This document shows positions 10,559 to 42,650 of a DNA stretch of 51,834 nt, in pieces. The stretch comes from an uncultured Bacilli bacterium. Lineage in GTDB: Bacteria; Bacillota_I; Bacilli_A; RF39; UBA660. Within the stretch, counting starts at the first letter, position 1. Each line of letters opens with the position of its first letter. The notes below the pieces were generated by a model that was not told the DNA's origin, did not search any database, and saw only the letters and a program-made list of their open reading frames with translations. The DNA lies in contig CALVQV010000004.1 of NCBI GenBank assembly GCA_944358325.1, positions 1 to 51,834 of the forward strand, written 5' to 3'. Position numbers and translations under genes: made by a program.

Positions 10559-10587
10559 TTGTCAAAAAAATAGTTTTATGATATTAT
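10559..10587 (+). promoter_or_regulatory. Promoter of the antisense RNA in the solitary module
   Basis: TTGTCA (10559-10564), a 17-bp spacer, and TATTAT (10582-10587) predict a start near 10594. It faces the peptide gene on the other strand. Confidence 0.65.
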
Positions 10588-10593
10588 GAATAT

Positions 10594-10706
10594 GTCAAGG
10601 AGACTTGCATAAAATAAAAAGGATACATTTGATTGTCGTAATCAGATGTAATCCCTAGAGATTGTGGCATCTGACTTCAACTTGCGTTGATTTCAGATGC
10701 CTTTTG
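10594..10706 (+). ncRNA. Predicted antisense RNA of the solitary module
   Basis: This RNA of about 113 nt has two stable hairpins. The first pairs GGATACATTTGATT (10621-10634) with the strand at 10640-10654. The second is a terminator: GGCATCTGA (10666-10674) with TCAGATGCC (10693-10701), an inner TCAAC/GTTGA stem, then TTTT. It ends at the stop codon of the minus-strand hydrophobic peptide. The peptide mRNA starts with almost the same hairpin (10823-10847), so the two RNAs can pair in trans. An attenuator or riboswitch for frr was considered, but frr has its own promoter 236 bases downstream of the terminator hairpin. Confidence 0.6.
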
Positions 10707-10784
10707 CTATTTTAAAAGTAATATAATTACTATTAAGAATAGGAGTAATATTATTATGAAAAGAGATATTTCTCTTTTTGTCAT
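10707..10784 (-). CDS. 25-residue hydrophobic peptide, type I toxin-like
   Basis: The peptide starts MTKREISLFI, continues as an uninterrupted Ile/Leu/Val/Phe stretch and ends in Lys. It resembles the four tandem peptides at 34.5-35.7 kb (MSKKDILISF and relatives) in length, charged MxKK/R head and single membrane helix. The ribosome site AAAGGTGG is half buried in a hairpin CCTTTCAT/ATGAAAGG (10796-10817), typical of toxins kept silent. The promoter (minus strand) is TTGTAT-N17-TATAAT at 10854-10882. A facing antisense RNA promoter lies at 10559. Toxicity is inferred, not shown. Confidence 0.6.
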   Translation of the reverse strand: MTKREISLFIIILLLFLIVIILLLK

Positions 10785-10853
10785 AAATATTACCACCTTT
10801 CATATAAAAATGAAAGGAAAAACATCTGATTTTTATCAAATATATCCGATAAA

Positions 10854-26608: not shown

Positions 26609-28153
26609 ATGAGTAAGAAGCGTAAGAAAAATGGATTTACAACAATTGAATTAATTACAACTTTTGGCCTTGTTATGACAATTACAATATTATTGTTTGA
26701 ATTAGTTGTTTCTTTAAAAGAAACATATGTAAATGTTGCGATGCGAAGCTTACTTTTAAATAAACAAGCTATTATGGAACAAAAGATATATGATGATTTT
26801 AATTATAAAAAAATAAAAATAGCTAGTAAATGTGGTAAAAACTGTTTGACATTCTTTTTTGAAGATAATTCACAAGCAACTTTAAAAATAGATACTGATA
26901 CCAATATATTTACTTATGGTGATTATACTATCAAATTAGATGATAATACTTATTTTGGTGATATAGAAGTTACTAATAAAACATTGCCTGGTGTGGCTGA
27001 AGATAAAAATGATTCTATGATCATAATTGATATTCCAATAAAAAATAATCTTTTGGATGATGATTATGGTATTAGTGCAGTATATCAATATAATTCTAGA
27101 GAAACATCAATAAGTGATATTGCGTTTGATGATTCTTCAATAGATGCAAAAATTTTTCTAAAAGGTTCTAGTGAAATGAAAGTTGCAAAAGGTTATACTT
27201 TTGATGATCCGGGATATTATACTTTAGTTGCAGGAGAAATCACAGATAATGATTCTAGGGTTGTTGTTAATAGTACGATAAATATTGAAACACCAGGTAA
27301 TTATGAAATAACATATGAATTATATGTTTCTGGTGAATTAATGGAAACAAAAGTTAGAAAAGTTACTGTTTTTGAGACAGTTACTGATTTTGCATACACT
27401 GGTTCAGAACAAACTTTTACTGTAATGTTAGATGGTTATTATAAATTAGAAGTTTGGGGTTCAGCAGGAAGTGGTGGATCAAATGGTGGATATTCAACAG
27501 GCAAAATTTATTTAACAAAAGGGACAATTCTTTATATTTATTGTGGTGGTATACGATTTAATGGCGGTGGAACAGGAGGTTTAGGAGGTCGTCATGGTGG
27601 CGGCGCAACACATATAGCTACAAAAAGCGGTACCCTTAACACTCTTGGTAATTTTAAAGACTCTATTTTGATTGTTGCTGGCGGTGGTGGCGGTCAAGGA
27701 GAAAATGGTATAGGTGGATCTGGTGGTGGCACATCAGGGCAAAATGGAAGAACTAGTGCTGGCTATGGTACCGGTGGAACTCAAACATCTGGAGGAAGTT
27801 ATGGTTCTGGTAATTTAGGATCTGGTAGCAGTGGATCTTTTGGACAAGGCGGAAACGGAAATTCAGCTGGAAACTGTGGCGGTGGCGGCGGCGGCTATTA
27901 TGGCGGTGGCGGCGGCGGCCGTTGGGACACAGCTGCAACAGGAAAAAGAGACGGTTCTGGTGGCGGAGGATCTGGGTATATAGGAAATAGTAATTTATTT
28001 GATAAACATATGACATGTTATAATTGCACAACATCTACTAGTGAAAATACATATACAATTTCAAATACCCTTTCGTCAAGTGATCCTATATCTGATTATT
28101 CTAAACAGGGTAATGGCTATGCTATTATTACTTATTTAGGTACATCAGAATAA
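26609..28153 (+). CDS. Prepilin-like protein with Ig module and ALK-type glycine-rich domain
   Basis: The leader KKRKKNG is followed by FTTIELITTFGL and a long hydrophobic helix, a type IV prepilin signal with Glu at mature position 5. A pseudopilin part (to about 180) is followed by a DUF5011-like Ig module (about 185-255: KVAKGYTFDDPGYY). The C-terminal 260 residues begin FAYTGSEQTFTVMLDGYYKLEVWGS, cut here to GYYKLEVWGSAGSGGSNGG, and are a Gly-rich domain like that of ALK/LTK kinases. The Gly-coding stretch is locally GC-rich (27650-27970). It is probably a surface-exposed pilus tip or adhesin. No pilus motor genes are nearby. Confidence 0.75.
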   Translation: MSKKRKKNGFTTIELITTFGLVMTITILLFELVVSLKETYVNVAMRSLLLNKQAIMEQKIYDDFNYKKIKIASKCGKNCLTFFFEDNSQATLKIDTDTNIFTYGDYTIKLDDNTYFGDIEVTNKTLPGVAEDKNDSMIIIDIPIKNNLLDDDYGISAVYQYNSRETSISDIAFDDSSIDAKIFLKGSSEMKVAKGYTFDDPGYYTLVAGEITDNDSRVVVNSTINIETPGNYEITYELYVSGELMETKVRKVTVFETVTDFAYTGSEQTFTVMLDGYYKLEVWGSAGSGGSNGGYSTGKIYLTKGTILYIYCGGIRFNGGGTGGLGGRHGGGATHIATKSGTLNTLGNFKDSILIVAGGGGGQGENGIGGSGGGTSGQNGRTSAGYGTGGTQTSGGSYGSGNLGSGSSGSFGQGGNGNSAGNCGGGGGGYYGGGGGGRWDTAATGKRDGSGGGGSGYIGNSNLFDKHMTCYNCTTSTSENTYTISNTLSSSDPISDYSKQGNGYAIITYLGTSE

Positions 28154-33083: not shown

Positions 33084-33092
33084 TCCTCTTTT
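33070..33092. terminator. Bidirectional terminator between miaA and the transglutaminase gene
   Basis: AAAAGAGGA (33070-33078) pairs with TCCTCTTTT (33084-33092). A-rich and T-rich flanks serve both converging genes. Confidence 0.85.
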
Positions 33093-34026
33093 ATTGTGCT
33101 TCTAAATAAATATTTTTAGGATAATCATGTTGACCTGTATTAATTTCTTCTAATTCTTCAGTAGTAATCATAAAGAAATTATGCATAATGATATTTTCAC
33201 CATTACTTAAAACAGGATCATCCCAAGTAAGATCAAGATGATACCACTTATCATTTATTTTTACTAAATTCCAAATATGATTATCAGTAGCAATCTTATA
33301 ATTAATAACACCAATGCGATCTAAAAATAAGGCCATAGCATCACTATAGCCACCACATATGGCATATCCTTGCAACAATGGACCATAAGCTATATGAGAT
33401 TCATATAAAGAATTGGAGTCATCTAAATGTTGTTCAATCAATTCAGCACGTTCAGTATCATATTCAGCATTTTCAACAACATAATCATGGAAAAGTCTAA
33501 TTTTATCTTCCACTTGCATATAATCTTTAATATTATTTTTTATGAATTCATCTAGTTTTTTATTTATGGCATTTATTTCTGTTTCATTATAGGCATATGT
33601 AACATCAACGTTTATTTTACCAAAATTATTTGTGTAAACAGAAATTTTATCAAAAGTATTAAAAACAGGAACAAAATTATTTATATCTGATAATATATCA
33701 CTATTTTTTGTTAAATTATCTATATCAGTTAAACAAGATGTATAAGAATCATCACAGAAAAAAGCAAAATTGGTCCATCCATTATTTAAGATAGTGTAAA
33801 AAATATTATAGACATCTTGAATATTTTTAGGATAAAAATCATTTGTTTGTTGAACATATAAAAAATCATAATTACGTTTATATTCATTAGGTTCATTAAT
33901 AACAATTGTTTTGCGATATATAAAATTATCAATTATATAGGTAGCAATTTTTTCATGATATAGCAAAGTAATTCCTAAAACTGATAATAAAAATATAATA
34001 ATTAAAAAATTTTTCATTGCTTTCAT
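33091..34026 (-). CDS. Membrane-anchored transglutaminase-like protein
   Basis: An N-terminal membrane helix (about 5-22) leads to an outside protein whose last 130 residues form a transglutaminase-like cysteine-protease fold. The Cys is in YAICGGYSDAMALFLDRIG, the His in DNHIWNLVKI and the Asp in DKWYHLDLTWDDP. Such proteins usually act on cell-wall or surface peptides. It has 311 residues. The ATG follows GGTGAG. It is transcribed against miaA. Confidence 0.85.
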   Translation of the reverse strand: MKAMKNFLIIIFLLSVLGITLLYHEKIATYIIDNFIYRKTIVINEPNEYKRNYDFLYVQQTNDFYPKNIQDVYNIFYTILNNGWTNFAFFCDDSYTSCLTDIDNLTKNSDILSDINNFVPVFNTFDKISVYTNNFGKINVDVTYAYNETEINAINKKLDEFIKNNIKDYMQVEDKIRLFHDYVVENAEYDTERAELIEQHLDDSNSLYESHIAYGPLLQGYAICGGYSDAMALFLDRIGVINYKIATDNHIWNLVKINDKWYHLDLTWDDPVLSNGENIIMHNFFMITTEELEEINTGQHDYPKNIYLEAQ

Positions 34027-34061: not shown

Positions 34062-34087
34062 AAAAAAAAAGAGTAATTAAATTACTC
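34062..34087 (-). terminator. Terminator after rpsT
   Basis: On the minus strand GAGTAAT pairs with ATTACTC around TTA (34071-34087), followed by nine Ts (34070-34062). Confidence 0.9.
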
Positions 34088-34345
34088 CATAGCATTAACT
34101 TTTTTAGTAAGACGGCTTTTGTTACGTGCTTTAAAATTATCTTTAATAACACCTTTTGCATTAGCTTTATCTAATTTTTTAATAGCAACAGCTAAAGCTT
34201 TATTAGCAGCGTCTTTATCATTAGCTTTAACAGCTCTTTCTACTTTTTTCATTGCTGTTTTCATACTTGCTTCAAATTCATTGTTGTTAGCATTTTTTTT
34301 GATATTAACTTTAACTTTTTTAACGGCATTTTTCATATTTGGCAT
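34082..34345 (-). CDS. rpsT: 30S ribosomal protein S20
   Basis: This 87-residue basic helical protein has the S20 pattern: PNMKNAVKKVKVN at the start, FEASMKTAMKKVERAV, and AVAIKKLDKANAKGVIKDNFKARNKSRL, seen here as KGVIKDNFKARNKSRL. The ATG at 34345 has GAGGTG eight bases upstream; an upstream in-frame extension is non-coding leader. It lies next to the spore protease gene gpr, as in Bacillus, but is separated from it by the peptide array. Confidence 0.95.
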   Translation of the reverse strand: MPNMKNAVKKVKVNIKKNANNNEFEASMKTAMKKVERAVKANDKDAANKALAVAIKKLDKANAKGVIKDNFKARNKSRLTKKVNAME

Positions 34346-34478
34346 AATATTCACCTCGCTTTTGTAAATTGCTATAAACAATTTTAACAAAAAAACAATA
34401 AAAAAGCAATACAAACCTTTCCTTTACTTATAAAAAAAGTAAAAATAAATCTTTAATCAAAGAAAAATAATTACTTTA

Positions 34479-34507
34479 TTGTTAATTAAATGCTATTTTG
34501 ATATAAT
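34479..34507 (+). promoter_or_regulatory. Peptide promoter, copy 1
   Basis: TTGTTA (34479-34484), 17 bp, TATAAT (34502-34507). The same layout is kept at 34812-34840, 35148-35176 and 35477-35505, with spacers of exactly 17 bp. Confidence 0.85.
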
Positions 34508-34568
34508 TAATATAGGAACATTTAATAGTTGGGTGGAGCCAAACTTCAAGCTGAAGGGAGGCGATGAA

Positions 34569-34652
34569 ATGGGGAAGAAGGATTTTTTAATTTCTTATTT
34601 AGTCATAATTATCTTCCTTTTATTATTTTTACTATTTATAGTACTTATATAA
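34569..34652 (+). CDS. 27-residue hydrophobic peptide, array copy 1
   Basis: The sequence begins MGKKDFLISYLVII and is followed only by Ile, Leu, Phe and Val to the stop, a single membrane helix behind a short charged head. GGGAGG lies seven bases before the ATG, next to a CTTCA/TGAAG hairpin (34546-34558) that may limit access. The gene is too short for routine gene callers. The size, hydrophobicity and antisense layout suggest a type I toxin; no named family is recognised (Fst has a Pro and a charged tail, absent here). Confidence 0.7.
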   Translation: MGKKDFLISYLVIIIFLLLFLLFIVLI

Positions 34653-34760
34653 AAGAAATCCACCTAACTCAGCAATGAATTAGGTGTTCACAATATATTG
34701 GCAACACCCAACATGAGCATATTAAGTGTTCCTTTTTATTATATGATGAATTCCTCATCT
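34652..34760 (-). ncRNA. Predicted antisense RNA, array copy 1
   Basis: The minus-strand promoter is TTGACA (34795-34790), 17 bp, TAAAAT (34772-34767). The RNA would start near 34760 and end at the CACCTAA/TTAGGTG hairpin (34661-34686), whose minus-strand side runs into ATTTCTTTT. It is complementary to the 3' end of the peptide mRNA. Its 5' part (GGAACACTTAATA, GTTGGGTG) resembles the 5' end of the peptide mRNA itself. Confidence 0.65.
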
Positions 34761-34766
34761 ACATAC

Positions 34767-34795
34767 ATTTTAACACATCTATATTTTATTGTCAA
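34767..34795 (-). promoter_or_regulatory. Antisense promoter, copy 1
   Basis: A consensus TTGACA and TAAAAT are separated by 17 bp on the minus strand. They are repeated identically at 35103-35131, 35433-35461 and 35762-35790. Confidence 0.85.
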
Positions 34796-34901
34796 AATTA
34801 CAATTACTTTATTGTTGACTTTGATCTATTTTGATATAATTAATGTAGGAACATTTAATAGTTGGGTGGAGCCAAACTTCAAACTGAAGGGAGGCGATGA
34901 A

Positions 34902-34985
34902 ATGGGAAAGAAGGATTTTTTAATTTCTTCTTTAGTCATAATTATCTTCCTTTTATTATTTTTACTATTTATAGTACTAATATAA
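34902..34985 (+). CDS. 27-residue hydrophobic peptide, array copy 2
   Basis: It is identical to copy 1 except Ser for Tyr at residue 10 (MGKKDFLISSLVII). The ribosome site GGGAGG (34889-34894) lies seven bases before the ATG. A longer in-frame reading starts at 34698 but runs through the preceding terminator and promoter, so it is not real. The promoter is at 34812-34840. Confidence 0.7.
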   Translation: MGKKDFLISSLVIIIFLLLFLLFIVLI

Positions 34986-35096
34986 AAGAAATCCACCTAA
35001 CTCAGCAATGAATTAGGTGGTAACCAAAAATTATTGGCAACACTCAACATGCGACATTGAATGTTCCTTTTTTATTGTATGATGAATTTCTCATCT
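34984..35096 (-). ncRNA. Predicted antisense RNA, array copy 2
   Basis: The promoter is TTGACA-N17-TAAAAT at 35131-35103 (minus). The terminator hairpin CCACCTAA/TTAGGTGG is at 34993-35020. The layout is as in copy 1. Confidence 0.65.
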
Positions 35097-35238
35097 ATAT
35101 ACATTTTAACACATCTATATTTTATTGTCAAAATTGCAATTACTTTATTGTTAACTTTGATCTATTTTGGTATAATTAATGTAGGAACATTTAATAGTTG
35201 GGTGGAGCCAAACTTCAAACTGAAGGGAGGCTGATAAT

Positions 35239-35322
35239 ATGAGTAAAAAAGATATTTTAATTTCTTTTTTAATAATTATTATTCTCTTTTTATTATTATT
35301 GTTGTTTGTAACTTTAATATAA
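35239..35322 (+). CDS. 27-residue hydrophobic peptide, array copy 3
   Basis: The sequence begins MSKKDILISFLIIII, followed by Leu/Phe and ending VTLI. Compared with copies 1-2, the charged MxKKD head and the length are kept while the helix residues are exchanged for other aliphatics, as expected under selection for a membrane helix. The ribosome site GGGAGG is at 35225-35230. The promoter is at 35148-35176. Confidence 0.7.
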   Translation: MSKKDILISFLIIIILFLLLLLFVTLI

Positions 35323-35426
35323 AAAGGCACCTAACTCAGCAATGAATTAGGTGTTTACATATAACGGCAACACCCAACATGCTAATATTGAATGTTCCTT
35401 TTTATTATATGATGAATTCCTCATCT
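35320..35426 (-). ncRNA. Predicted antisense RNA, array copy 3
   Basis: The promoter is TTGACA-N17-TAAAAT at 35461-35433 (minus). The hairpin at 35328-35353 is followed on the minus strand by CCTTTTT, a good terminator. Confidence 0.68.
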
Positions 35427-35566
35427 ATATACATTTTAACACATATATATTTTATTGTCAAAATACAATTACTTTATTGTTAATTTAATAACACTTTGAT
35501 ATAATTAATATAGGAACATTTAATAGTTGGGTGGAGCCAATCTTCTAATGAAGGGAGGCCGATAAT

Positions 35567-35650
35567 ATGAGTAAAAAAGATATTTTGATTTCTTTTTTAA
35601 TAATTATTATTCTCTTTTTATTATTATTGTTGTTTATAACTTTAATATAA
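35567..35650 (+). CDS. 27-residue hydrophobic peptide, array copy 4
   Basis: It differs from copy 3 by one residue (Ile for Val near the end). The leader hairpin before the ribosome site is CTTC-TAAT-GAAG, whereas other copies have CTTCA/TGAAG with a three-base loop. The stem is thus kept while the loop changes. The promoter is at 35477-35505. Confidence 0.7.
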   Translation: MSKKDILISFLIIIILFLLLLLFITLI

Positions 35651-35755
35651 AAAATCCACCTAACTCAGCAATGAATTAGGTGTTTACAAATAATGGCAAC
35701 ACTCAACATGCGATATTGAATGTTCCTTTTTTATTATATGATGAATTCCTCATCT
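35648..35755 (-). ncRNA. Predicted antisense RNA, array copy 4
   Basis: The promoter is TTGACA-N17-TAAAAT at 35790-35762 (minus). The hairpin at 35657-35682 is followed on the minus strand by GATTTTTTAT, a good terminator. Confidence 0.68.
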
Positions 35756-35835
35756 ACATACATTTTAACACATATATATTTTATTGTCAAAAGTATACTT
35801 TACCAGTTTTTTTACAAAATATTAATGGTGATTAG

Positions 35836-36825
35836 ATGAATTTGCGTACAGATTTAGCTGTTGAATTATTGGATCAATTTAGTAAAAAAACAAAAGTTAA
35901 AGAAGAAGTTATTGATAGTGTTAAAATTACAAGTGTTTTAATAGCAAAAGAAGATGCCGTGAAAATAGGCAAAGCTGATGGACATTATATGACTTTAGAA
36001 TTTGGTGATATTAGAGATAATAATATTAGCAAAAAAGTTATTGATATTTTAAAAGATAAATTAAAATTATTTGTAAAAAATAAAAATAAAATTTTGATTG
36101 TTGGTTTAGGTAATGATAAGTCAACCCCTGATGCTTTAGGGCCACTTACTTTAAAATATATTTTGGTAAATGCACCATTAATTGATATGGGATATAGTAA
36201 TGATTCAGTTAAGACGTATGCTTTTGAGCCTAGCGTTATGGGAAAGACGGGAATAGAAACTAGCGATATTATTAAATTACTTACTAGTCATATTAAACCA
36301 GATTTAGTACTTATAGTTGATGCTTTAGCATCTTCTTCTATTGAAAGACTTAATCATACAATACAAATTAATAATGTTGGTATTATGCCAGGTAGTGGTG
36401 TTGGAAATAAAAGAAAAGAAATAACTAAGAATAATTTGGGTGTAGATATAGTTGCCTTGGGGGTTCCAACTGTTGTTGATTCAGCAACTATTGTTAGTGA
36501 TACGATAGATTATATGTATAAGTATTTTGCTTATAATAAAAAAGAATTAGATAATCCTGCTAGTAAATTAAAAACCGGTTTACCTAATTACAAAAATTAT
36601 GATATTACTATTAATGAAGATGAAAAAAAAGCGCTTATGGGAATGCTTGGTACACTTGATAATGAAGAATTAAAAAGTCTTATGATAGAAGTTTTAAATC
36701 CCATTGATTCTAATTTGATGGTTACACCTAAGGAGATAGATGAAATAGTTTTAATTTTGGCTAAAATTATTGGAACAAGTATAAATTTAGCATTTGAACT
36801 TAATGTGACAAATTATTTGGATTAA
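35836..36825 (+). CDS. gpr: Germination protease GPR
   Basis: GPR degrades small acid-soluble spore proteins when spores germinate. The start NLRTDLAVELL contains the family's RTDLA(V/I)E site. The core motif VGLGNDKSTPDALGPLTL and the region GMGYSND, PSVMGKTGIETSDII, IMPGSGVGNKRKEI (signature PGxGVGNxRKE) are clear. The propeptide is very short or absent compared with Bacillus. It has 329 residues. GGTGATT precedes the ATG. It opens a gpr-spoIIP-small gene cluster. Confidence 0.95.
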   Translation: MNLRTDLAVELLDQFSKKTKVKEEVIDSVKITSVLIAKEDAVKIGKADGHYMTLEFGDIRDNNISKKVIDILKDKLKLFVKNKNKILIVGLGNDKSTPDALGPLTLKYILVNAPLIDMGYSNDSVKTYAFEPSVMGKTGIETSDIIKLLTSHIKPDLVLIVDALASSSIERLNHTIQINNVGIMPGSGVGNKRKEITKNNLGVDIVALGVPTVVDSATIVSDTIDYMYKYFAYNKKELDNPASKLKTGLPNYKNYDITINEDEKKALMGMLGTLDNEELKSLMIEVLNPIDSNLMVTPKEIDEIVLILAKIIGTSINLAFELNVTNYLD

Positions 36826-38257: not shown

Positions 38258-40300
38258 ATGATTATGAAAAAAACATCAAAAAATAAAGAAAAAAGTTTTA
38301 AATTGGCAACATTGGGATTCACATTAATAGAATTACTAGCAGTTATCGTTATATTAGCTGTAATAGCTTTAATCGCAACACCAATGATAATGGGAGTAAT
38401 AGACGGAGCAAGAAAAGGAGCATTAGAAAGAACATTTGATAATATCGAACATGCAGCTGAATTGTATTTTTATGATGAATATAATGGACATATGTCTGAA
38501 AATCCAATGATTATACCAATGCCAGAATTAAAATCAATGTTAAAAAATTATAATAGTGATATGGATAGTGAAAGTGTTGTAGTAGAAGAAAAAGGAGATA
38601 TATTAACATTTTATTATACAGGAAGAGATAATAATCCATATAAAACAATAGGTAAATTAAAAGACAAAATAGAAGAAGATACAAACCATATAAAAATGAA
38701 TGTCGTAGTAAATGGCAAAACAGTAAATAAAGTATATGGAACAAAGAGCGAAAAAGATAGTGTCATGAAAAACTATGTATGGTATAGTGGCAACTTATGG
38801 CAAGTATTAGAAACAAGTGATAATTATATTAAAATGGTATTAGCTCATTCAATAACATCAATACCATATGGTTCTACAAGCGATTGGAATACAAGTTGGG
38901 TAAGAAAATGGTTAAATGATACAGGAGACGCATATAGTGGTATTTTCTATAATGGTTTAGATAGACAAGATATTATTTTAGATGGTAATTTTTGTTTAGA
39001 TGAAGTAAATGTAACAACAGTATTAAAAACAAATAATAGTCATGTAGTAACCGTACCAACAAGTTCAACTAAGATAACAAGTTGTAATAACAAGGTAACT
39101 GATAAAGTAGGCTTATTAACATTTGAAGATTATGTTTATGCGAATACAGGTAATAGTGCAACATACACAGGTGGAAGTTTCTTAGATGAAGATGAACTAA
39201 TGTGGACAATGACTAAGTATACAAAAAATAGTACCTATCCAACAACATTAGTATGGACCCAATTTTATGATAATTTAGATAGTAAAAGCGGAAATTTAAT
39301 GGTAGATACAGGTGGAACAGTAAACAGTGTCACTAAAAGTTCAACGTTTAGAACAAATACCTATGGTTTAGGAGTAAGACCAGTAATATACATCAAGAGT
39401 GATGTAAATGTGCGAGATGGAAATGGAACAAAGAAAGATCCATTTATCCTAAGTGTAAATCAAGAATATACTAAAGACACAGCCTTAAATCAAGTAACAA
39501 TAGGGGAATATATTTACTTAGATGAGGGAAATGCACCAAGTGGAAATCATGCAAGTGCAATTGTTAATGGCTATGGAATAACTTATAATAAAAATAAAGT
39601 GCAATATAGAGTAATAGATATCTTAGAAGATGGAAGTATAAAGGTAGAGCGAGCAGATGTGTTAAGAGGATTAGATAGTAGTGTATCAATAAGAAGTAAT
39701 GTATACGTACCATTTTATTATAAATGGGATAATAGTAATACAGGTAATACGTGTGGATGTGAAAATGGAACGGGCGAAACATGTTATTGGGGTGGATGTA
39801 CAAACAATAATATATACAATCCAAGTGTAGGAAGTGGAAGCTATGCATATACTGAAGGTGAAAATCTAGGATATTATTTAAATAATGCAAGTAATAGTTA
39901 TTATAATTGGTTAAGTGATACAACAAAAAGTTATATTAAAGAATATAATTGGAATTTACCTGTAACCACCCATGGAAATGATTATAGTGATATGTATAGA
40001 TATACAACTGATGGAACATATCCAAGTAGGAAAAGTGATGGTGTAGTAACAGCTAAAATTGGATTACCAAGTTATGGTGAAAGATATAGTGGAAATGATT
40101 TAAATATAACATACTGGTATATCAATCGTTGGACCGGCTCTTCTTCCTTTGTGGGCCGTGTCAACAACGGCGGGAGTGCGAGCGGCGGCAGCGCTGGCAG
40201 CTTCTGGGATGGGGTCCGCCCAGTTATGATTCTTAACTCTAATATCGTTATAACATCAGGGGATGGGACTATGAGTAATCCATATAGTATAAAGGGATAA
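38258..40300 (+). CDS. DGR target: prepilin-like protein with two related C-terminal domains, the last carrying the variable repeat
   Basis: The leader ends at Gly20 before FTLIELLAVIVIL, a type IV prepilin signal with Glu at mature position 5. Two related domains follow (about 165-400 and 405-680), each of the DUF6273-like/C-type-lectin-like kind (YVWYSGNLWQVLE, then VRKWLND; IGEYIYLDE, then VQYRVIDI). Both end in GVRPV plus a DGNGT or SGDGT turn. Only the second contains the variable repeat (codons 626-656; Thr626, Phe631, Arg634, Gly638, Ser640, Ser642 and others replace template Asn codons). It is probably displayed on the surface as a diversifiable binding protein. GGAGA precedes the ATG. 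Confidence 0.93.
   Translation: MIMKKTSKNKEKSFKLATLGFTLIELLAVIVILAVIALIATPMIMGVIDGARKGALERTFDNIEHAAELYFYDEYNGHMSENPMIIPMPELKSMLKNYNSDMDSESVVVEEKGDILTFYYTGRDNNPYKTIGKLKDKIEEDTNHIKMNVVVNGKTVNKVYGTKSEKDSVMKNYVWYSGNLWQVLETSDNYIKMVLAHSITSIPYGSTSDWNTSWVRKWLNDTGDAYSGIFYNGLDRQDIILDGNFCLDEVNVTTVLKTNNSHVVTVPTSSTKITSCNNKVTDKVGLLTFEDYVYANTGNSATYTGGSFLDEDELMWTMTKYTKNSTYPTTLVWTQFYDNLDSKSGNLMVDTGGTVNSVTKSSTFRTNTYGLGVRPVIYIKSDVNVRDGNGTKKDPFILSVNQEYTKDTALNQVTIGEYIYLDEGNAPSGNHASAIVNGYGITYNKNKVQYRVIDILEDGSIKVERADVLRGLDSSVSIRSNVYVPFYYKWDNSNTGNTCGCENGTGETCYWGGCTNNNIYNPSVGSGSYAYTEGENLGYYLNNASNSYYNWLSDTTKSYIKEYNWNLPVTTHGNDYSDMYRYTTDGTYPSRKSDGVVTAKIGLPSYGERYSGNDLNITYWYINRWTGSSSFVGRVNNGGSASGGSAGSFWDGVRPVMILNSNIVITSGDGTMSNPYSIKG
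40133..40223 (+). repeat. DGR variable repeat (VR)
   Basis: This 91-nt stretch aligns without gaps to the template repeat at 42401-42491. Sixteen positions differ, all A in the template (10 A to G, 4 A to T, 2 A to C). All 64 non-A positions are identical. The invariant 3' end GGGGTCCGCCCAG can serve as the initiation-of-mutagenic-homing site. Outside the 91 nt the similarity stops abruptly. Confidence 0.97.
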
Positions 40301-40312
40301 AAAAAGTAGTAA

Positions 40313-40330
40313 ACGGGCCTTTTGGTCCGT
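40313..40330 (+). other. Hairpin downstream of VR
   Basis: ACGGGCC (40313-40319) pairs with GGTCCGT (40324-40330; one G-T pair) around TTTT. DGRs of the Bordetella phage type need a short GC hairpin or cruciform behind the VR for efficient homing. This one lies about 90 bases beyond the VR, further than in the phage, so the role is tentative. Confidence 0.55.
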
Positions 40331-40334
40331 ATGG

Positions 40335-40370
40335 AAAATGCAGTAATTAGTTTCTTTTACTGCATTTTTT
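40335..40370 (+). terminator. Terminator between target and DGR accessory genes
   Basis: AATGCAGTAA (40337-40346) pairs with TTACTGCATT (40357-40366), followed by Ts. It may separate target expression from the retroelement genes. Confidence 0.85.
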
Positions 40371-40388
40371 CGAAGGTTAGGAGGTACT

Positions 40389-40817
40389 ATGAAGTTAATT
40401 GATTGTTACAATTATTATAAAGATAAATATCCTAATTATATTGTCTTTATAAAAAGTGGCAATTTCTATGATGTTTTTGGTGAAGATACAAAGATTATTT
40501 CATATCTTTTGAATTATCGTATTAATGAGTTTAATGGTATTAAAAAATTAGGTTTTCCTGTAAATTCATTATTTAAGGTTACAAGAGTTATGGAGCAACA
40601 AAAAATAAATTATCTTCTTTTGGAAAAAGAGGATGAGGAATATGATGTAAGTACTAAAAAACGGTTTGTGAATGGTAATTATTTAAATTATGTTGAAAAA
40701 TTAGAACAGTTTAATGCTTATAGTATGAGAATTGAAAAAATATATAGAGAGTTAAAAAGTAGAATTTTAGATGAAAATTTTGAAAAATTAATCACTAAAA
40801 TTGAGAATATATTATGA
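40389..40817 (+). CDS. DGR accessory protein with MutS domain I-like fold
   Basis: The first 80 residues match the mismatch-binding N-terminal domain of MutS: YNYYKDKYPNYIVFIKSGNFYDVFGEDT resembles the MutS YxxxKxxYPDxLLFFRMGDFYExF pattern, and GFPVNSLFKVTRVMEQ continues it. No ATPase domain follows; the 142 residues end in a helical part. MutS-like (MSL) small proteins are described next to some DGR reverse transcriptases. A strong TAGGAGG precedes the ATG. It overlaps avd by four bases. Mismatch or cDNA-heteroduplex binding is inferred. Confidence 0.8.
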   Translation: MKLIDCYNYYKDKYPNYIVFIKSGNFYDVFGEDTKIISYLLNYRINEFNGIKKLGFPVNSLFKVTRVMEQQKINYLLLEKEDEEYDVSTKKRFVNGNYLNYVEKLEQFNAYSMRIEKIYRELKSRILDENFEKLITKIENIL

Positions 40818-41170
40818 ATGATAATTTATTAATTCTTACTAAGATAAAGAAAACAATTATTAGATTAGATAAGATTACTGAAAACTTTAGTCGTAATGAG
40901 ATAGCTCTTAGAGATAGTATAAAGAAGACAATGTATAGTTTACTTGAAGAATGTTATATGGCTAATATTAATAAGGCAGAAGAAAGATATTTTCATCAAA
41001 AGAATGTTTTAGTTAAAATTAAGATGTTAGATTTTTATATAAACGTGTCTTATGAAAAACAATTATTAAGCATTAAACAATTTGAATCTATTGGTAAGCA
41101 TTTATTAGAAACATTTGTTTTAACCCAGGCGTGGATAAAAAGTGGTATTAATAATGAAGAGAAAGAATGA
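40814..41170 (+). CDS. avd: DGR accessory protein Avd-like (four-helix bundle)
   Basis: This is an all-helical 118-residue basic protein of the Avd/four-helix-bundle type, with ENFSRNEIALRDSIKKTMYSLL matching the F-x-R-x-x-L helix pattern, cut here to NFSRNEIALRDSIKK. Avd pentamers bind the reverse transcriptase and template RNA in the Bordetella phage DGR. It overlaps the upstream gene by four bases and the reverse transcriptase gene by 17, as expected for a co-translated complex. Confidence 0.8.
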   Translation: MNDNLLILTKIKKTIIRLDKITENFSRNEIALRDSIKKTMYSLLEECYMANINKAEERYFHQKNVLVKIKMLDFYINVSYEKQLLSIKQFESIGKHLLETFVLTQAWIKSGINNEEKE

Positions 41171-42392
41171 TTTATATAAACAACTTTTAGATCTTAGAAA
41201 TATTATAAAAGTTTATAATAAACAAATCAAACTAAATACAAAAAACAAACATAAGATTGAAAAATATGAAAATTATTTACTTTTAAATTTTATTAATATT
41301 AAACAAAAATTAGAAAATAGAGATTTTAAGTTTGATAAATATTTTATTTTCTTAATAAAAGAGCCTAAGTATCGTATAATCATGAGTCAAACAATTAACG
41401 ATAAATTAGTTAATCATTTAGTAGCTAAATATATTTTGTTATCCGTTTTTGAACCAATTTTATTGGATTGTAATGTCGCTACTAGAAAAAATAAAGGTAC
41501 TTTGTATGGTGTTAATCTTGTAAAGCGTTATATTAATGAAATGAAGCATAAAAAAACCCCGATTTATTATTTAAAATGTGATATAAGTAAATATTTTTAT
41601 ACGATTGATCACTTTAAATTAATGAATATTTTAAGTTCAAAAATTAAAGATAAAGATGCGCTTTTTCTGTTAGAAAATATTTTAAAGACAACTAATTATG
41701 CCTATATATCTGAACGTATCAATTATTTAAAAGATTTAGAAAGAGAAAAAATAAAAAATTTAAATATATCTTCTAATAATAAAGAAATATTATTTAAACA
41801 AATTGATAAAGTTCCTTCTTTTAATTTAAAAAATAAGGGTATTCCTATTGGAAGTATGACCAGTCAAGCTTTTGCTATAATTTATTTAAATGATTTAGAT
41901 CATTATATAAAAGAACAATTACATATTAAGTACTATGTTAGATATATGGATGATTTTGTTTTGTTTCATCATGATAAGGAATATTTAAAATATTGCTATA
42001 AAGTGATCAAAGATAAGATTGAAAATGAATATTATTTACAATTAAATCCTAAATCATCAATTGGAATGATTAGTAAAAATAATGCTTTAAATTTTTTAGG
42101 GTATCGTTATTATTTAAGCAACACAAATAAATTATATATGAAAATACGCAATAATACCAAAAGAAGATTTAAGCGAAAAGTTAAAAAAATGTATCGATTA
42201 TGTCAAAATAACAAATTAGATTATTATAGTTTTAAACAAGTGCTAGCAAGCTATAAAGGGCATTTTAAATATGCTGATACTTATAATTTTCAAAGAAAAA
42301 TTTTTAGCAACCACAATTTTTTTGAAATTATAACATTAGGTTATTCTGTGAAAATCGATGAATACGGTGATGTAGTAAAATTAAAGGGATAA
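41154..42392 (+). CDS. DGR reverse transcriptase
   Basis: The RT palm has the first catalytic Asp in KCDISKYFYTID (Asp143), the DGR-type motif 4 IPIGSMTSQA (233-238, with SQ where group II intron RTs have SP) and YMDD (264-267). KYRIIMSQTINDKLVNHL and NFLGYRYY match motifs 1-2 and 6. The thumb is short and basic, to 412 residues, with no maturase or endonuclease domain. I chose the ATG at 41154; a GTG at 41142 adds four residues. The stop lies eight bases before the template repeat. Confidence 0.96.
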   Translation: MKRKNDLYKQLLDLRNIIKVYNKQIKLNTKNKHKIEKYENYLLLNFINIKQKLENRDFKFDKYFIFLIKEPKYRIIMSQTINDKLVNHLVAKYILLSVFEPILLDCNVATRKNKGTLYGVNLVKRYINEMKHKKTPIYYLKCDISKYFYTIDHFKLMNILSSKIKDKDALFLLENILKTTNYAYISERINYLKDLEREKIKNLNISSNNKEILFKQIDKVPSFNLKNKGIPIGSMTSQAFAIIYLNDLDHYIKEQLHIKYYVRYMDDFVLFHHDKEYLKYCYKVIKDKIENEYYLQLNPKSSIGMISKNNALNFLGYRYYLSNTNKLYMKIRNNTKRRFKRKVKKMYRLCQNNKLDYYSFKQVLASYKGHFKYADTYNFQRKIFSNHNFFEIITLGYSVKIDEYGDVVKLKG

Positions 42393-42400
42393 AACTATTA

Positions 42401-42491
42401 AACGGCTCTTCTTCCAATGTGGGCAATGTCAACAACAACGGGAATGCGAACGGCAACAACGCTGGCAACAACTGGAATGGGGTCCGCCCAG
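42401..42491 (+). repeat. DGR template repeat (TR)
   Basis: This 91-nt donor of the variable repeat has 27 A, 50 G or C and 14 T, so it is 55% GC in a very AT-rich genome. Read in the target frame it holds 13 Asn codons (AAC/AAT), the standard DGR device. Changing their A's reaches many amino acids but never a stop, because the third base is C or T. It follows the RT stop directly. Confidence 0.97.
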
Positions 42492-42650
42492 ATTTGATAA
42501 AAACTTATACATTGAGAATTTAACTCTTAATAGTTAAAAGCTTATCAAAACAAGTTTTATTCCTCTCTAGTAAGAGAAAAATAGAGTATGGATAGATGAA
42601 GCATTAGTATATATAGAAAGTGTGAATTCTTAGATACCATACGATTAGTG
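42492..42650 (+). ncRNA. Predicted template RNA spacer with nested stems
   Basis: Downstream of the TR, TTTGATAA (42493-42500) pairs with TTATCAAA (42542-42549), enclosing TTTAACT (42519-42525) paired with AGTTAAA (42532-42538). No ORF is seen. In the phage system the spacer after the TR is needed for Avd/RT binding and cDNA priming, so this structured stretch is the natural candidate. The rest (42550-42650) holds nothing I can name. Confidence 0.6.

Follow-up and report, generated by a model that had tools for sequence, protein, structure and literature searches.

Each unit of a tandem array of four, lying between rpsT and gpr in the genome of an uncultured Bacilli bacterium, is best read as a type I toxin–antitoxin-like module of an unlisted family, in which a hok/AapA-like inert mRNA would be combined with a TxpA/RatA-like 3′ antisense RNA; we put the probability of this reading at about 0.8. 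The array was analysed within a stretch of 51,834 nucleotides (the window), together with the rest of the host genome and its relatives.

TRF placed the array at 34469–35792 (period 333, 4.0 copies, 88% matches, score 1886), flanked by rpsT (34082–34414, minus strand) and the germination protease gene gpr (35836–36825, plus strand). In each 333-nt unit, a sigma70-like promoter is followed by a Shine-Dalgarno (SD) sequence predicted to be masked and by a hydrophobic ORF of 27 codons, and a TTGACA-N17-TAAAAT promoter faces them from the other strand. A TATAAT −10 element 5′ of the ORF and a GGGAGG ribosome site are present in all four copies, and copies 1–2 and 3–4 form near-identical pairs. An earlier sequence-only reading had proposed four tandem modules, each with a complete plus-strand promoter, a 27-codon hydrophobic ORF and an opposing promoter of constant spacer. 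It was right on these parts: the array was recovered by TRF, ORFs and promoters were read from the sequence, and the plus-strand promoter, the ORF and the minus-strand promoter with N = 17 each occur in 4/4 copies. It overlooked the 5′–3′ helix, the alternative pairing, the other modules and the family-wide spread. The features of the array are as follows.

34479–34507, plus strand: sense promoter TTGTTA-N17-TATAAT of copy 1, read in the sequence; a −10-like motif lies 5′ of 154/170 family units
34515–34740, plus strand: predicted sense RNA of copy 1 (5′–3′ helix; fold z −5.15; R3 match of 210 bits; pair counts)
34515–34527 and 34528–34535, plus strand: 5′ helix arms of copy 1, with 3′ arms at 34705–34712 and 34720–34732
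34556–34561, plus strand: SD GGGAGG of copy 1, from sequence, with accessibility computed
34569–34652, plus strand: ORF of copy 1, MGKKDFLISYLVIIIFLLLFLLFIVLI, from the ORF list and selection analysis
34661–34686, no strand assigned: post-stop hairpin of copy 1, CACCTAAC..TTAGGTG, the antisense RNA terminator, with a left arm that is complementary to the 5′ GUUGGGUG as well
34650–34760, minus strand: predicted antisense RNA of copy 1, ~110 nt (fold z −4.5; strand signature)
34767–34795, minus strand: antisense promoter TTGACA-N17-TAAAAT of copy 1, from sequence and the fixed −10 distance across the family
34848–35075, plus strand: predicted sense RNA of copy 2, with ORF 34902–34985, MGKKDFLISSLVIIIFLLLFLLFIVLI
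34984–35096, minus strand: predicted antisense RNA of copy 2, with promoter 35103–35131, read in the sequence
35184–35406, plus strand: predicted sense RNA of copy 3, with ORF 35239–35322, MSKKDILISFLIIIILFLLLLLFVTLI
35321–35426, minus strand: predicted antisense RNA of copy 3, with promoter 35433–35461, read in the sequence
35513–35734, plus strand: predicted sense RNA of copy 4, with ORF 35567–35650, MSKKDILISFLIIIILFLLLLLFITLI
35650–35755, minus strand: predicted antisense RNA of copy 4, with promoter 35762–35790, read in the sequence

Other elements were seen around the array. A transglutaminase-like protein related to the MAG6410 lipoprotein family is encoded at 33091–34026 (minus strand), and a glycine-rich surface protein with an Ig-like domain and an ALK/LTK-type glycine-rich domain at 26609–28153 (plus strand), in a genome that is AT-rich. 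A diversity-generating retroelement occupies 38258–42498 (plus strand). It includes a 680-aa target gene with an N-methylation motif, a variable repeat (40135–40230), a bAvd-like protein (40814–41170), a reverse transcriptase (41142–42392) and a template repeat (42403–42498). Template and variable repeat are 82% identical, and the differences examined fall mostly at template adenines. Between the target and bAvd-like genes, a 142-aa ORF (40389–40817, plus strand) matches MutS domain I, which is unusual in such an element.

The peptide is under purifying selection, with pN/pS of 0.18–0.36 across 118 different 27-aa ORFs collected from the family. Between the copy pairs 1–2 and 3–4, ~11 synonymous changes at ~17 sites compare with ~10 nonsynonymous changes at ~61 sites, so synonymous sites change several times faster. 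Random synonymous/nonsynonymous ratios had been named as grounds for refutation, and the ratios found are non-random. The ORF set had passed a hydrophobicity filter, which biases codon-position counts; these counts were therefore kept out of the main evidence. Family peptides span 24–30 residues and have a basic head in common, mostly M-x-K-K-D. A small hydrophobic peptide gene with a ribosome site, as in type I toxin–antitoxin systems, is present. When 24 diverse members were compared with Pfam, NCBIfam, PHROG and PADLOC, nothing of note emerged, in agreement with the earlier description of an unrecognised peptide unlike Fst, Ldr or TxpA. Two members reached HokA in profile searches, only at E 0.12, and Pfam and NCBIfam gave no match to Hok or AapA. 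The aligned peptides lack both the Fst-like charged tail, as had been claimed, and the P-x-x-x-G motif of Fst/Ldr, to which there was no profile match. For TxpA/BsrG, no peptide profile match and no Rfam match to RatA-type RNA were obtained; Rfam held no family match near the modules. An Rfam match to RsaJ in the window was weak and judged spurious (E 0.24, 17.9 bits against a cut-off of 100).

The 5′ end of the predicted mRNA pairs with its own 3′ end (12 + 8 bp) around the ORF. In copy 1, the first 13 nt, GGAACATTTAATA, followed by GTTGGGTG, pair with the 3′ segments CACCCAAC and TATTAAGTGTTCC, and a U-run follows directly. Computed sense-RNA folds gave z of −7.8 for copy 4 and −7.5 for a divergent copy on contig 15, alongside the value for copy 1. 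A window scan for fully paired 13-nt arms, 180–230 nt apart and before a U-run, retrieved only copies 1, 3 and 4 and a minus-strand site at 10847–10633, and 20 shuffled windows yielded no matches. Since the unit finder demanded a good outer helix, pairing was tested on halves aligned apart by mutually blind profile HMMs. The outer helix was 97.5% paired in 191 units, and a shift of one or two columns lowered this to 46–48%; among 53 distinct arm pairs, pairing was 94.0%, whereas shuffling the partners gave 89.2% (maximum 91.0%). The inner helix was 99.2% paired, too uniform in the separately aligned set to show covariation, and alone it gave no excess (0.935 versus 0.932 with shuffled partners); its support comes from an alignment of 56 diverse full units. 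There, 19/27 pairs across both helices and the post-stop hairpin changed on both sides, which 0/500 shuffles equalled, with the outer-helix counts inflated by the choice of units with a good outer helix and with relatives that are not independent. Conserved 5′–3′ pairing of this kind characterises locked mRNAs of the hok/aapA type.

A second helix joins the 5′ GUUGGGUG to CACCUAAC directly behind the stop codon, with 99.3% pairing and 21 double-change cells versus 4 in shuffles. Taken together, the conservation of both helices means that the 5′ element has two conserved partners, and the second pairing suggests an mRNA switch. The ribosome site is predicted to be masked, as the sequence-only reading had it: the median unpaired probability of the SD is 0.16 for the complete mRNA; for the nascent leader it is 0.33, versus 0.53 when leaders are shuffled.

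On the opposite strand, a convergent RNA of ~110 nt is predicted, with a hairpin and U-run at its end directly behind the ORF stop, where such an RNA had been said to terminate. At the sequence level, a predicted antisense RNA gene with its own promoter and terminator overlaps the putative toxin mRNA, as type I systems require. The antisense −10 lies 30–39 nt from the 3′ arm in 138/170 units, and the promoter score is at least 10 of 12 in 97/170 units versus 11 in shuffles. A G·U pair on one strand is an A·C mismatch on the other. Read on the mRNA strand, the long helix contains 114 G·U versus 7 A·C cells and the alternative helix 63 versus 0; G·U is tolerated and A·C nearly absent, which indicates that both helices act in the mRNA. 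The 3′ local hairpin, with 25 G·U versus 229 A·C cells in a set of 215 distinct 3′ halves, and the post-stop hairpin, with 9 versus 26, lean towards A·C in the same reading and hence would act in the antisense RNA. Both RNAs therefore appear to be real, made and folded. We give this comparison without a probability, because a few columns carry much of the signal and relatives are not independent. Computed sense/antisense duplexes were strongest for cognate pairs (−143 to −158 kcal/mol), followed by non-cognate pairs within the array (−97 to −123 kcal/mol), and reached only −41 to −49 kcal/mol between peptide types. These energies suggest that array copies may cross-neutralise one another, whereas different peptide types would not. 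RNase III is encoded in the host genome.

These elements can be assembled into a working model. Sequence comparison shows the ORF and the selection on it, both promoters, the long helix, the alternative pairing and folding of the two strands; transcription, 3′ trimming, the switch, repression, RNase III cleavage and toxicity are inferred in what follows. A constitutive promoter would yield an mRNA of ~225 nt for a one-helix membrane peptide of 24–30 residues with a basic N-terminal head. During synthesis, a short GCC/SD hairpin would restrict ribosome access. As soon as the 3′ end has been synthesised, the 5′ end (GGAACAUUUAAUA-GUUGGGUG) would pair with it (CACUCAAC-UAUURARUGUUCC), leaving the mRNA locked and inert. 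Translation of hok and aapA mRNAs becomes possible after 3′ trimming, and transient hairpins protect these RNAs during their synthesis (PMC6733600); by analogy, trimming would release the 5′ element here, which would pair instead with the post-stop CACCUAAC and render the mRNA translatable. The convergent antisense RNA would start from a separate promoter, form two or three hairpins, terminate at the ORF stop and span the whole 3′ UTR. It most likely neutralises the mRNA through a long duplex cut by RNase III, as for TxpA/RatA, whose antisense RNA is likewise placed at the 3′ end and forms a duplex that RNase III cleaves (PMC3531473, PMC8167048). Should the antisense RNA be lost, trimmed mRNA would be translated and the peptide would harm the membrane. 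One point speaks against the model: the antisense RNA is complementary to the 3′ arm as well, and if bound before trimming it could open the helix and so undo the inert form.

Modules of this kind are found beyond the array. A fifth, divergent one lies on the minus strand of the window at 10614–10846, with different arms, a different peptide and its own antisense promoter; covariance model R3, which itself includes that unit, scores it at 113.5 bits.

10614–10846, minus strand: predicted sense RNA of the fifth module, with ORF 10784–10707, MTKREISLFIIILLLFLIVIILLLK, 5′ arm GGATATATTTGAT and 3′ arm ATCAAATGTATCC
10594–10710, plus strand: predicted antisense RNA of the fifth module, with promoter TTGTCA-N17-TATTAT at 10559–10587 (duplex energy)

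Ten full modules, representing three peptide types, are present in the host genome (1.08 Mb, 77% complete): the array accounts for four, the site at 10.6 kb for one and other loci for five. Of these five, two follow uvrB and a radical SAM gene, one is beside a cysteine desulfurase gene with a decayed copy adjoining, and two of a 30-residue type (e.g. MKKRTFIIKVLRLIAIILLLLTLLVIAIKI) are near tRNA genes. On host contig 15 (L010, 1–194), a decayed module without ORF adjoins an intact one. In G001, the second genome of the genus, gpr is 74% identical, and the rpsT–gpr gap is short and holds no array. At its uvrB/radical SAM site (contig 43; L011, 1500–1560), only the antisense start hairpin and −10 are left, and this remnant behind the radical SAM gene is, by its sequence, the relic of a lost module.

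All comparative data are assembled metagenome genomes. Half-unit models match 108/193 and 129/193 genomes of the host family (90/148 and 103/148 genera), with up to 14 model matches per genome. In a draw from the order, 201/288 genomes match, and among the genomes listed every one belongs to the host family. The class and phylum draws used R1, which was built from the peptide type of the window and may miss other types: matching relatives in the class again belong to the host family, with only two genomes outside it giving weak matches (L280, G411), and the phylum draw added nothing new. In L280, of family f5, a module of the 30-residue type with an antisense promoter can be read by eye, although the automatic unit finder missed it; it was possibly acquired by transfer. 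Matching records that bear names are metagenome genomes of uncultured Bacilli, Tenericutes or Mollicutes, together with Candidatus Onthousia; the order is probably of the RF39 type. No viral contig scanned contained the exact pattern of the 5′ arm or of the antisense start, and distant blastn against phages and plasmids gave no match. We lean, by a narrow balance, towards an order-wide unlisted superfamily in uncultured gut Bacilli, with a three-way mRNA switch in which one 5′ element would be contested by the post-stop arm and the 3′ end, an antisense RNA carrying the same motifs, several peptide types and ten or more copies per one-megabase genome.

Could the peptide instead be non-toxic, a small membrane peptide serving regulation or a stress response, with the same RNA architecture keeping its expression low? 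Small hydrophobic peptides are in many cases harmless, and the highest number of matches per genome is arguably too many poisons; the tight double lock with antisense RNA, the tandem multiplication, the gain and loss between sister species and the fast change of peptide types nonetheless fit toxin–antitoxin better, and we consider the non-toxic peptide unlikely. That the family is a distant branch of Fst/Ldr, Ibs, Hok or TxpA/BsrG, missed by profile searches because its peptides are so short, is quite unlikely. Peptides of 24–30 residues do hold little profile information, and the KKD head recalls K2-D3 of Fst, residues important for its toxicity (PMC8309996); against this stand the 24 diverse members without a notable Pfam, NCBIfam, PHROG or PADLOC match, the empty Rfam search and the absent P-x-x-x-G motif.

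Two further alternatives were weighed and rejected. Inverted repeats of 12 + 8 nt near the unit ends, the occurrence at several loci and the absence from the rpsT–gpr gap of the sister species would suit MITE-like non-autonomous mobile repeats, with the arms as transposase terminal repeats and the ORF incidental. Yet the arms keep G·U but not A·C, sensible only in RNA, and co-vary between species, both promoters are conserved outside the arms, and the ORF is under selection; mobile repeats are accordingly very improbable. No target duplication was seen at the empty site in L281, whose junction is too diverged to be sure. The position directly upstream of gpr might indicate a cis-regulatory element of that gene, either an attenuator or an antisense promoter cluster, but like units adjoin uvrB/radical SAM, cysteine desulfurase and tRNA genes in the host genome and the sister species has gpr without the array, which makes this explanation barely credible.

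As type I toxin–antitoxin-like modules, the units combine traits of several known systems. Ibs/Sib of E. coli shares a very short, almost purely hydrophobic peptide and tandem copies, but Sib RNA covers the whole ibs gene, and we know of no 5′–3′ lock in that system. With hok/Sok (E. coli, plasmid R1), the modules share an mRNA locked by 5′/3′ pairing with an expected need for 3′ trimming, a choice between two partners for the 5′ element and a small membrane peptide; here, however, the peptide is about half as long and unrelated, no overlapping mok-like frame is seen, and the antisense RNA covers the 3′ UTR rather than the leader. IsoA covers the 5′ part of aapA mRNA. The aapA/IsoA modules of Helicobacter pylori (PMC6733600) are alike in the ~225-nt mRNA, the 5′–3′ long-distance interaction, transient SD hairpins, a short peptide and several chromosomal copies, whereas here the peptide is unrelated, the host is Gram-positive and the 3′ end is where the antisense RNA lies. 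That position is shared with TxpA/RatA, but txpA/RatA and bsrG/SR4 of Bacillus subtilis (PMC3531473, PMC8167048) encode toxins of 38–59 residues with other sequences and reside in prophages, while the present modules have no phage or viral record match. Fst/par (Enterococcus; PMC8309996) and Ldr also have a short hydrophobic peptide, an SD in a stem and convergent RNAs, with tandem copies in Ldr; their peptides differ in carrying the P-x-x-x-G motif and a charged tail. Where Fst/par has complementary direct repeats, the repeats here are inverted, which gives the two RNAs a common 5′ motif.

Type I modules have so far been discovered through resemblance to established examples, and under-detection is suspected (PMC12390103). 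The large family described here was identified from its RNA architecture and strand-specific G·U/A·C signatures, and the same strand test is usable to predict antisense RNAs from genomes alone. Its hosts are small-genome gut Bacilli known mainly from metagenomes, and our search for literature on RF39 with toxin–antitoxin systems found none. The modules would add a Gram-positive family to those with a 5′–3′ locked toxin mRNA, and the suggested switch is open to mutational test. They also raise the question of why ten copies are kept in one-megabase genomes.
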